From Rhodospirillaceae bacterium (lineage in GTDB: Bacteria > Pseudomonadota > Alphaproteobacteria > Rhodospirillales > Rhodospirillaceae): 64,000 nt of DNA. The stretch lies in assembly GCA_947476925.1 (NCBI GenBank), contig CANJSF010000004.1, positions 1-64,000 on the forward strand, given 5' to 3'. How positions within the stretch are numbered: position 1 is the first letter of the stretch; every line of letters starts with the position of its first letter. Below, piece by piece: positions 496-3,351 of this stretch. Under the pieces are notes generated by a model, which did not search any database, was not told where the DNA came from, and worked only from the letters and a program-made list of their open reading frames with translations. A program made the translations under genes and the position numbers.

Positions 496-2208
496 ATGAC
501 GGATCATCTTAAACGAGCATTCAAACTCAATGAGCAAGGGCGCTGGGCAAGAGCCGAGGTGGCTTGTCGAGACGCGGTCGCCGCTGATTCTGGGAACGCG
601 ATTGCTTGGCAGTTGCTAGGAACACTTTGCCTCAGAAATGCTCGCATTACTCAGTCAGTATACGCGTTCTCAAAAGCTCACGCGCTGACGCCAAACGATC
701 CAAACCTAGCAGTGAATTTCGCATCAGCATTGCGCATCGCCGCGAGATACGACGAAGCCATAACTTTGTTGGAATTCGCTCTATCGCAGAAGCCGAACAC
801 GCCCGAAGCGCACCTCACACTGGCTCAATGCCTTACTGGGTTAAATCAGCACGCAAACGCTGATGAATCCTATCAGAGCGCATTAACTCTTCGACCGGCT
901 TGGCCACAGGCTCTCGAGGAGCGTGCTTTCTGCCTGCGCCGCCTTGGGCGAAACGACGACGCTTTGGACCTTGCGAAGCAAGCTTTGCGTCTCGATGGAA
1001 ATCGAGCCTCCTGTCTTCGCCTCGTTGCAGACTATTTGCAGGAATCTGGTCAGCTAGCCGATGCGGTCGAACACTATGAGCGTTCTATTCAATTTGATTC
1101 CAATGACGGCCACACGCACAACAACCTCGGTCTGACATTGATGAAACTTGGCGAGTGTGAGCGGGCTGCTCAGTCGCATCGCCGAGCCGTTGAATTGATT
1201 GGCAACGATCCAGTGATTCAATATGACTTAAGCTTAGCGCTGCTAGCATTGGGTCGGCTCGCTGACGGCTGGCCGCTATATTCGGCACGACACGCATTAC
1301 CTGGCAACTTGCTCGGCCAGCGAAAACATCGCGTCGCGCGTCTGTCGGGGCATGCTGTAAAGGATCTCTCTCTTTTTGCCTGGACCGATCAAGGAGTCGG
1401 CGAGGAGATTATGTTCGCCCAGCTTGTCCCGGATCTCATCAGTCGGGGCGCGAAGTTAACGTTAGAGTGTGAACCTAGGCTTGTTTCCCTGTTTGCACGC
1501 TCTTTTCCCGAGGTGAAGGTTGTATCGCGAGAACTGGGGCCCAACTTGGATAATGAATTGGGGTGCGCCGCTCAGCTTGCGTTGGCCGACACCGCGGCGT
1601 GGTTACGACCAAGCCTGGCATCCTTCCCCAATCACATGGGCTACCTTGTCGTTGACCGCGCGCTTCTTGCCTCACTGAAGGCCCGATATCGAAAGACAAC
1701 GACAAAACTCACCGTTGGTTTGGCCTGGAGAACCGCTGCTGCGGCAAAACTCGCTGAACATAAATCTGTTGCTTTGGATCAATGGGGGCCCATCCTCAGC
1801 CAACCAAATGGCTCATTTGTGAGTTTACAATACGGGGACGTTGCACAGGAAATTGATCAAGCAAACGAAAAGTTCCGCGTCTCGATTTTTCACGATCGTG
1901 AAGTTGATCCGATGGCCGATCTCGACTCATTTGCAGCACAAGTGGCTGCAATGGATCTTGTCATCACCACGAGCAATGCCACAGCTCATATGGCCGGGGC
2001 CTTAGGCATTCCGTGCTGGGTTGTGTTACCCAGCGGCGCAGGTCGGTTGTGGCATTGGTTTGTCGAACGAAACGACAGCCCCTGGTACCCTTCTGTTAAA
2101 CTTTATCGGCATTCGTGGGGTAATGATTGGACGGCAGTTCTCAGCCAAATCGGCACAGCTTTGGCGGGCATCGTGAAGCCCGCGCAAACCGACGAGCATA
2201 ACAAATGA
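496..2208 (+). CDS. TPR-repeat protein with C-terminal glycosyltransferase-like domain
   Basis: The 570-residue protein has about seven tetratricopeptide repeats over residues 1-245. It then has a C-terminal glycosyltransferase-B-like region (about 285-560). That region contains GVGEEIMFAQL and, later, DLVITTSNATAHMAGALG with PCWVVLP, a combination typical of TPR glycosyltransferases related to family 9/41 enzymes. Such proteins are usually cytoplasmic and act on surface polysaccharide or protein glycosylation; the substrate cannot be read from the sequence. It lies between the two tRNA-Thr repeats and just upstream of a PEP-CTERM gene, and exosortase/PEP-CTERM systems often accompany exopolysaccharide genes. 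The ribosome site before ATG 496 is weak. By eye, base composition is lower in G+C than in genes after 3.5 kb, which suggests transfer. Confidence 0.75.
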   Translation: MTDHLKRAFKLNEQGRWARAEVACRDAVAADSGNAIAWQLLGTLCLRNARITQSVYAFSKAHALTPNDPNLAVNFASALRIAARYDEAITLLEFALSQKPNTPEAHLTLAQCLTGLNQHANADESYQSALTLRPAWPQALEERAFCLRRLGRNDDALDLAKQALRLDGNRASCLRLVADYLQESGQLADAVEHYERSIQFDSNDGHTHNNLGLTLMKLGECERAAQSHRRAVELIGNDPVIQYDLSLALLALGRLADGWPLYSARHALPGNLLGQRKHRVARLSGHAVKDLSLFAWTDQGVGEEIMFAQLVPDLISRGAKLTLECEPRLVSLFARSFPEVKVVSRELGPNLDNELGCAAQLALADTAAWLRPSLASFPNHMGYLVVDRALLASLKARYRKTTTKLTVGLAWRTAAAAKLAEHKSVALDQWGPILSQPNGSFVSLQYGDVAQEIDQANEKFRVSIFHDREVDPMADLDSFAAQVAAMDLVITTSNATAHMAGALGIPCWVVLPSGAGRLWHWFVERNDSPWYPSVKLYRHSWGNDWTAVLSQIGTALAGIVKPAQTDEHNK

Positions 2209-2260: not shown

Positions 2261-2371
2261 AGTGTAAAATTTTCCGACACCTATTTCGTTTCACGGACTC
2301 TAGGAAACCCAATGCCTTTGCGGGTTCTACTACTATTGCGCGTTGTTCAGAGTGTCGGAAAATTTTACACT
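2261..2371. promoter_or_regulatory. Paired 20-bp inverted sites, probable activator-binding enhancer
   Basis: AGTGTAAAATTTTCCGACAC at 2261-2280 is the exact reverse complement of 2351-2370 apart from the terminal base. Each copy is itself a dyad of the form GTGT-N11-ACAC around an A/T core, as expected for a dimeric regulator. The copies end about 140 and 50 bp upstream of the -24 element of the sigma-54 promoter, the usual range for NtrC-family activator sites. The regulator might be PrsR-like, as is known for PEP-CTERM genes in other bacteria, but no such gene lies in the window. A small inverted-repeat mobile element is the alternative, though no target duplication is visible. Confidence 0.55.
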
Positions 2372-2421
2372 TCTGCAGAGTCCGATTCTCTAAGCTTTTG
2401 ATTATTCACATAAAAAAAATC

Positions 2422-2438
2422 TGGCATGAAAATTGCTT
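2422..2438 (+). promoter_or_regulatory. Sigma-54 (RpoN) -24/-12 promoter of the PEP-CTERM gene
   Basis: TGGCATGAAAATTGCTT matches the RpoN consensus TGGCAYR-N4-TTGCW. GG at 2423-2424 and GC at 2435-2436 are separated by exactly ten bases. The expected start of transcription near 2448 leaves a leader of about 22 bases to ATG 2470, with an AGGAG ribosome site at 2459-2463. RpoN promoters need an upstream AAA+ activator, consistent with the paired sites at 2261-2371. Confidence 0.8.
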
Positions 2439-2469
2439 GTTTTGCCGGTATTAGCCCCAGGAGTTCTCC

Positions 2470-3152
2470 ATGAAGTTTACGTTTCTGGCCACCACCGCAA
2501 TTGCCACGGCAGCGCTTACTGGTGTCGCGTCGGCCGCTCCCATTACGTTTTATTACACTGGAACAATTAGCAGTGTGAGCAATCTTTCGGCAACGTTCTC
2601 AACTGGCCAAGCCGTCAGCGGAAGTTTTACTTTTGACGGTTCTGTGCCGGTTTATGTTTCAAGCGTCGCCTTTTCGTTATACCAATCGCCGACTTCTGGA
2701 ACATTGAATTTGGCCGGTGTCACTGGCGGTGTTCAATCACCTAATACATTTATCGGTGTTCGCAATTCAGCGCCCGGTAGCGTACGGACGATTTCAGCCT
2801 GGGCAGCCTAACCGGAACTTTGTCTGGCCAGATCAGCGTTTCGAATGTGCTCACGCCCGTGCTGCTTAATGTCGCAAACGTAGGCATCAATCTCAATGAC
2901 CCGACCGGAACAGCGTTTTCGACAACCAACCTGCCGCTCACCCCTCCAAATCTTGCAAATTTTTCAAATTCCACTGGATTTGCCCAACTTTTTGAATCCG
3001 TCGGACCGGACCAAGGTAGATTTGGGTTCGTCAACTTCAATCTTACTACTTTGACATCGAGTCCTGACCCAGTGCCTGCACCTGGAGCTCTCGCGCTCTT
3101 GGGCCTCGGCCTGCTCGGCGTCGGCGGTCTGCGCCGCAAGAAAGTCACCTAA
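2470..3152 (+). pseudogene. PEP-CTERM sorting-domain protein, split by a -1 frameshift
   Basis: The N-terminal frame (2470-2811) starts with signal peptide MKFTFLATTAIATAALTGVASA. It encodes a serine/threonine-rich secreted domain up to about residue 105. The C-terminal part is in another frame: open from about 2781, it begins RTDDFSLGSLTGTLSGQ and runs to 3152. It ends in the short sorting signal VPAPG, a glycine/leucine membrane segment and RRKK, the alphaproteobacterial form of the PEP-CTERM tripartite tail recognised by exosortase. A missing base near 2781-2790 explains the break; restored, the product would be about 227 residues. Promoter, ribosome site and terminator are intact, so the lesion may be recent or a sequencing error. 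No exosortase gene is in the window. Confidence 0.75.
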
Positions 3153-3209: not shown

Positions 3210-3304
3210 GCATTGATGGCGACATGAATTAGTACGTTAGTTTCTCAATCGTCACGGCTCAGTACGGCGCAGCGCGGTTTGGAAGGTTCGGCAGCAGCTA
3301 ACCT

Positions 3305-3351
3305 GCAAGTGGTAGGTCAGGTGTTCGAATCACTGATCGGGCACCATTATT
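3305..3351 (+). repeat. Attachment-site-like direct repeat, copy 2 (degenerate tRNA-Thr 3' end)
   Basis: Positions 3305-3351 repeat 126-172 with five substitutions. They keep GGTAGGTCA, GTGTTCGAATCACT and GGCACCATTATT. The upstream half does not fold into a normal D arm, and U33 of the anticodon loop is lost, so this is not a functional tRNA. It marks the probable distal junction of a ~3.2-kb insertion in tRNA-Thr. Confidence 0.7.

Follow-up and report, generated by a model that had tools for sequence, protein, structure and literature searches.

Which signals control the PEP-CTERM surface-protein gene near the beginning of a 64,000-nucleotide stretch of a Rhodospirillaceae genome (the window), and does the gene share them with others? 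Based on the whole of the evidence, we considered it probable that the window promoter depends on an enhancer and belongs to the sigma-54 promoters of the PEP-CTERM-box class, served by an activator of the PrsR kind and bent by IHF, with its boxes arranged in a rigid inverted pair that recurs at eight promoters. The genome of the window (G000) is a 3.8-Mb draft assembly of 81 contigs, and the window belongs to contig C4.

The window promoter and its surroundings

The region ahead of the gene contained an exact inverted repeat with 20-nt arms, AGTGTAAAATTTTCCGACAC and GTGTCGGAAAATTTTACACT, separated by a gap of 71 nt (Table 1). A 19-mer, allowed up to three mismatches, matched the window at two places only, both of them the arms (chance expectation, a mean of 0.02; two matches in 0/100 shuffles). 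The core of the box was asymmetric, with CGG on one side and TTT on the other; it was therefore an imperfect dyad, the orientation of which could be assigned.

A PEP-CTERM box combined with a sigma-54 promoter, with PrsR as the regulator, was already described by Haft 2006 (PMC1569441), and the idea of such a promoter is thus not new. In that description, the 17-nt motif 1 ends with TTTACA and is occasionally repeated, motif 2 has GG at -24 and GC at -12, and the spacer is 32-92 nt long, with a mean of 62.8. The sequence TGTCGGAAAATTTTACA, present in the window at 2353-2369 and 2263-2279, agreed with motif 1 as judged by the length and the TTTACA 3' end given in the text of that paper and not by its logo. 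The inner box was followed by the TGG of the -24 element after 52 nt, which is within the published motif 1-motif 2 range, the point at which motif 2 starts in the paper being possibly different.

The inverted pair of 20-bp sites and the sigma-54 element ahead of the PEP-CTERM start were both confirmed as the original prediction had placed them. The predicted gene was confirmed in part. The ATG at 2470 begins a signal-peptide-like sequence (by eye), and the tail matched PF07589 over the cut-off at 3069-3137 and also TIGR02595; however, the frame was not intact, and the frameshift had gone unremarked. It may be either a sequencing error or a mutation.

No family match was obtained for the C-terminal half of the TPR protein encoded upstream (496-2208). 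A homologue of this TPR/sugar transferase-like protein on C36 (L065 9071-10852) was 24% identical to it, and both genes adjoined a PEP-CTERM gene of the box regulon; a role of the two proteins in the glycosylation of surface proteins is possible.

A tRNA-Thr gene was located at 93-167, and its 3' part recurred at 3293-3351 in a copy 59 nt long and 83% identical. The two bracket the TPR and PEP-CTERM genes, as if a 3.2-kb cassette had been inserted at the tRNA gene. No integrase-like gene was seen between them when the ORF list was inspected by eye.

Table 1. Position and character of the features around the window promoter
Feature	Coordinates	Strand	Remarks
TPR protein gene, upstream of the PEP-CTERM gene	496-2208	+	C-terminal half sugar transferase-like (by eye)
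Outer (distal) PEP-CTERM box	2261-2280	-	Inverted relative to the gene; same arrangement in 8/8 G000 pairs
Inner (proximal) PEP-CTERM box	2352-2371	+	Forward; outer to inner 90 bp, start to start
IHF-like site TAAGCTTTTGATT	2391-2403	-	Perfect match to YAANNNNTTGATW; then an A-tract at 2412-2419
Sigma-54 -24/-12 element TGGCATGAAAATTGC	2422-2436	+	GG-N10-GC
PEP-CTERM surface-protein gene, frameshifted	2470-3152	+	Frame 1 stop at 2811; tail in another frame

One arrangement at eight promoters

The 17-nt core was searched in the G000 assembly. With up to three mismatches, 29 matches were obtained, compared with 8 for the reversed pattern; with up to two mismatches there were 18, of which 16 formed eight pairs and the other two lay within ORFs. 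In all eight pairs the outer box was inverted while the inner one ran forward, and the paired boxes agreed at 85-100%. The start-to-start distance was 90 bp in six pairs (that of the window on C4, one on C6 and four on C30), 88 bp on C36 and 101 bp on C12. The end of the inner box was 51-52 nt away from the TGG of the -24 element in 8/8 pairs, and each pair was followed by a PEP-CTERM gene. Hence, the genome-wide search for the box plus the -24/-12 element, proposed with the original prediction, gave the clustering it had foreseen, and rpoN, which it presupposed, was present once in G000.

The PF07589 search of G000 returned 15 rows and 13 PEP-CTERM domains over the cut-off. Nine of the 13 were situated behind box-pair promoters, the two consecutive PEP-CTERM genes on C6 being treated as a single unit, and a tenth domain (C6:74358) had a box of variant sequence, separated by 64 nt from a -24/-12 element. 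The matrix scan found no box for three domains (C17, C36:3416 and C73). The other PEP-CTERM ORFs listed for G000 read through to their tails, unlike the gene of the window.

On C36 (L065 252-3499), a boxless PEP-CTERM gene, assigned by eye to the VPLPA kind, was located behind genes resembling those of an ECF sigma factor and an anti-sigma factor; such a protein is perhaps also controlled in another, separate way. The 3.9-kb contig C73 (L123) carried an IS3-type integrase-like ORF and a boxless PEP-CTERM gene, a sign that parts of the PEP-CTERM gene set sit at assembly breaks.

The spacers between the paired boxes were also compared. All six comparisons among C4, C6, C12 and C36 gave z values of at most 1.9: the C4 and C6 spacers were 30% identical (z -0.1), yet both pairs measured 90 bp, while the values were 24% (z 0.7) for C4-C36 and 18% (z -1.5) for C4-C12. 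When C30 was included, z reached up to 1.9 in 16/22 between-contig comparisons and 2.1-4.6 in 6/22, the highest being C6-C30c with 53% identity. Within C30, copies a, b and c were related (z of 4.5 to 9.3), and copy d hardly so. Due to this relatedness and the six raised values, the eight promoters count as only about five independent cases. The distance was kept while the spacer sequence had mostly drifted, which argues for selection on the distance, with some shared descent, and against a mobile element. The 90- and 101-bp pairs differ by 11 bp, about one helical turn, which is no more than suggestive of a conserved helical phase.

Box promoters elsewhere and a candidate IHF site

The geometry was compared with that of G018 and G033, two genomes from the order of G000 in which both PrsR and PrsK scored over the cut-off. 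All 33 boxes listed for them (15 and 18) were covered with their surroundings, plus one longer stretch of each genome. The scan for a box plus a sigma-54 element, with spacers of up to 95 nt, yielded 24 sites, 18 of which had spacers of 63-65 nt; the others had 52, 54, 62, 75, 86 and 87 nt. A narrower scan (84 nt) saw 22 sites, without the G033 sites at 86 and 87 nt, and a PEP-CTERM-like ORF was recognized by a regular expression downstream of 10 of these 22. The sigma-54 test demanded both GG and GC and thus excluded one G033 site (L039; 64 nt, TAGC..., PEP-CTERM ORF), and the box matrix was built partly from sites to which it was then applied.

Second boxes in G018 and G033 (score of at least 9, within 320 bp) had the same direction at seven promoters and were inverted, weakly (11.0), at one. 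The difference in orientation from G000 gave a Fisher p of 0.0014 (6 same and 1 inverted against 0/8 same), or 0.015 with C30 counted once, both computed from the counts of the narrower scan and not the 7 and 1 of the wider one.

Nine promoters were collected from IMG/VR, three with a PEP-CTERM-like ORF behind them. Their second boxes had the same direction at 6/9 and were inverted with a score of at least 13 at two. Elioraea sp. Yellowstone had one inverted pair of 76 bp with a spacer of 52 nt ahead of a PEP-CTERM gene. Among stretches of five other PrsK-bearing genomes, those of G036, G006 and G024 contained no box plus sigma-54 site, that of G023 had a single one at 41 nt and that of G030 a single one at 94 nt; the 94-nt site had boxes in both directions, the inverted one at 122 bp with a score of 13.5. 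Of three PrsR-type plasmids, two (N. vulgaris and Photobacterium), each covered by a stretch of 49 kb, likewise yielded no such site. With at most one mismatch, the box was absent from four genomes of the same genus, except for one match in G004. The strict box, which misses variants, was found among 398 genomes of the phylum only in G000 and at one site in G419. A search of genome contigs for the inverted pair returned none with the strict pattern and one stretch, that of Elioraea, with the relaxed one, records close to G000 being possibly absent from the collection.

Two simple rules were tried and rejected. A tie between the inverted order and the short spacer of 51-52 nt fitted Elioraea and was contradicted by the IMG/VR set, in which a spacer of 51 nt went with a same-direction second box 68 bp away, and the inverted second boxes occurred at spacers of 57 and 64 nt. 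Inverted pairs were not unique to G000 either, given the looser IMG/VR cases (103 bp, score 15.5; 46 bp, score 21.3) and G030. Among the sequences compared, inverted boxes are a minority form; what is unusual in G000 is the use of one uniform, rigid inverted form eight times.

The original prediction overlooked a further element. A block matching YAANNNNTTGATW, which we take to be the reverse of the IHF consensus, was located in a common register between the inner box and the -24 element in 8/8 G000 promoters. Three matches were perfect, four had one mismatch and one (C30c) had two. The block started 21 nt past the inner box and ended 17-18 nt before -24. The best of 2000 shuffled sets had 5/8 promoters within one mismatch, and seven was reached in 0/2000.

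The 24 sites of G018 and G033 were picked without the use of the IHF motif. Eight of them had an IHF-like site in the same orientation with at most one mismatch, exactly 19 nt from -24 in seven cases and 20 nt in one. For 22 of the sites, no further match in that orientation was found over 1132 placements, and shuffles gave 0.01 on average and a maximum of 2 at that distance. The seven matches in the opposite orientation were scattered, at 7, 7, 18, 22, 22, 53 and 64 nt. In the IMG/VR set, 4/9 promoters had the site 18-19 nt from -24, one of them with a box-to-promoter distance of 55 nt. A PEP-CTERM promoter of Vibrio alfacsensis (spacer of 72 nt) was an exception to the 17-20 nt of these sets: its matches, each with one mismatch, were 28 and 8 nt away. 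As far as can be judged from these sequences, the IHF-like site probably occurs commonly, though not universally, in promoters with a PEP-CTERM box.

The sigma-54 polymerase stays closed at -24/-12 until an upstream AAA+ activator loops in, often with the aid of IHF (PMC4641369). As in the IHF-assisted class of such promoters, a candidate IHF site lies here between the enhancer and -24. A signature scan of selected G000 loci gave no match for the IHF subunit genes. In the collection searched, no literature joining PEP-CTERM, IHF and the promoter was found; PEP-CTERM and "integration host factor" co-occurred there in publications on Geobacter biofilms and on fruit-fly symbionts.

Compared with the class of Haft 2006 (PMC1569441), G000 shares the 17-nt TTTACA motif, a -24/-12 element within the published spacer range and the PEP-CTERM gene. 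It differs in that its boxes are inverted and held at a rigid 90 bp (88, 101) and 51-52 nt from -24 at eight promoters, that it has the IHF-like site, of which the section of the paper on the motif makes no mention, and that its assembly is without PrsR, PrsK or exosortase over the cut-off. On this comparison of sequences, the rigid inverted pair makes it a variant within the PEP-CTERM-box class.

The missing regulator and the possible explanations

Contrary to the original prediction, which had expected prsK/prsR and an exosortase, none of these genes gave a match over the cut-off in the G000 assembly, so that the prediction as a whole held, by sequence, for the promoter and the regulon and not for this machinery. 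The best PrsR (TIGR02915) score, 338 bits, fell short of the 502.6 cut-off, no PrsK (TIGR02916) was found among the 21/30 candidates scored, and the exosortase (PF09721), over the cut-off in 8/41 genomes searched, had 0 matches. By these searches, the XrtA/PrsK-PrsR/PEP-CTERM system was not complete in this assembly. The exosortase-linked sugar transferase TIGR03013 was likewise not found over the cut-off. An EPS/exosortase locus near the sugar transferases of C7 was considered and discarded, as TIGR03013 gave no match over the cut-off and no exosortase cluster was recognized in the 40-kb ORF list.

The completeness of G000 was estimated at 99.25%; this estimate counts core genes and is therefore blind to a missing island or plasmid. 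Vibrio alfacsensis and Nitratidesulfovibrio vulgaris each have a plasmid on which prsK is grouped with polysaccharide genes and with those of an exosortase and a PrsR-type regulator. The prs/exosortase locus is probably absent from the draft and not from the organism, and in our judgement a missing piece is clearly favored over loss or takeover.

It is unlikely, though not far-fetched, that the regulon is a relic in which PrsR, PrsK and the exosortase were recently lost, the promoters and genes being left as silent remnants. This would agree with the lack of all three genes over the cut-off in the assembly, with the frameshift in one PEP-CTERM gene, and with the four genomes of the same genus, none of which had an exosortase match and which had one near-match box in total. 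PrsK was over the cut-off in seven relatives, two of which (G006 and G030) had no exosortase match; separate losses are thus possible, and the same two cases speak against one lost or missing block. However, a silent set should decay, whereas the boxes, the spacing and the -24/-12 elements were intact at 8/8 promoters and the other listed PEP-CTERM ORFs were unbroken. The three absent genes also fit a single missing locus, and prs/xrt sets are known on plasmids. In G006, a member of the same family, prsK was present and prsR lost its C-terminal DNA-binding part through an apparent frameshift (L035, C1:69528-70739).

Quite unlikely, in our view, is an orphan regulon, that is, an inverted-pair, IHF-assisted switch operating without PrsR, PrsK and exosortase, with another activator such as FlbD and another anchoring route having taken over. 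Very unlikely is the narrower proposal that a resident enhancer-binding protein, most plausibly the flagellar FlbD, took over the boxes. PF00158 had seven matches in G000, and four were true enhancer-binding proteins, namely the NtrC-, NtrX-, FlbD- and PspF-like ones; two others look like Clp-type and MoxR-type ATPases, and the third is that of C22. NtrC, NtrX and PspF were over their own NCBIfam cut-offs, however, and FlbD, encoded in an apparent flagellar cluster, was just below its own (716.9 against 750). The C-terminal helix of PrsR, SRPTLYDLM in G018 and G033, was in none of the four proteins, and PrsR-bearing genomes have the box ahead of PEP-CTERM genes.

That the outer box serves a divergent sigma-54 promoter appears highly improbable: the Elioraea pair does show on its mirror side, again 52 nt away, a weaker site of the -24/-12 type with 2 mismatches, but 7/8 outer boxes of G000 were followed by none over 110 nt when up to two mismatches were allowed, the one of C30b being at 83 nt. 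The chance of a small MITE-like mobile element with 20-bp ends, named with the original prediction as a finding that would overturn it, is negligible, since the exactly inverted ends and the several copies in G000 are outweighed by the dissimilar interiors on different contigs and by the restriction of the eight pairs to positions ahead of PEP-CTERM genes at a fixed distance from -24.

The promoter of the PrsR-controlled, PEP-CTERM-box class was therefore retained as the best explanation. Against it we counted the lack of PrsR, PrsK and exosortase matches over the cut-off despite the high completeness, the assignment of the resident enhancer-binding proteins to other families, the minority status of the inverted pair elsewhere, the scarcity of box plus sigma-54 sites in the stretches of the other PrsK-bearing genomes and their lack in those of two PrsR-type plasmids, the reduction of the eight promoters to about five independent cases and the frameshift in the PEP-CTERM gene of the window itself.

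Related systems agree with it in part. Transcription of pepA in Aquincola was found by experiment to be RpoN-dependent, with a predicted enhancer (PMC9850573), and G000 resembles it in the PEP-CTERM gene and the sigma-54-type promoter. Unlike the G000 assembly, Aquincola has prsK/prsR; plasmid-borne prsK-prsR did not rescue floc formation of its prsK mutant, and the terms "inverted" and "integration host" are absent from the main text of that paper. In D. vulgaris, five predicted PEP-CTERM targets of the regulator DVUA0057 were enriched in DAP-chip (PMC3333781), the legend of which gives no validated binding motif for DVUA0057, and one motif was predicted to be common to DVUA0057 and a second regulator, DVU0110 (PMC4641369, 2015). 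The likeness lies in a regulator predicted for PEP-CTERM genes, DVUA0057 binding upstream of them by DAP-chip; the difference is that in D. vulgaris the plasmid-borne regulator is present.

We propose that a PrsR-kind activator, composed of response regulator, AAA+ and Fis-type DNA-binding domains, and presumably encoded on an unassembled island or plasmid, would bind both boxes as dimers. The two boxes may act together, the dimers raising the local concentration of the activator and nucleating its hexamer. IHF, provided that it exists and binds in G000, would bend the DNA at its site, past the inner box and ahead of the promoter, thereby bringing the activator onto the RNA polymerase-sigma-54 at -24/-12. 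The promoter would then be opened by ATP hydrolysis and the PEP-CTERM gene transcribed. The enhancer appears to have been standardized in G000 into the rigid inverted pair of the eight promoters.

In the published work cited here, the motif given as the activator site of the widespread PEP-CTERM system was obtained by computation. Eight near-identical enhancers, with their spacing kept against a mostly drifted sequence, allow the roles of box orientation, helical phase and IHF to be tested directly. The IHF-like site and the absent machinery deserve the most attention, and the former would extend the published promoter model by one element and make regulon searches more precise. For the organism itself, at least eight surface-protein gene sets are apparently placed under one stereotyped switch.
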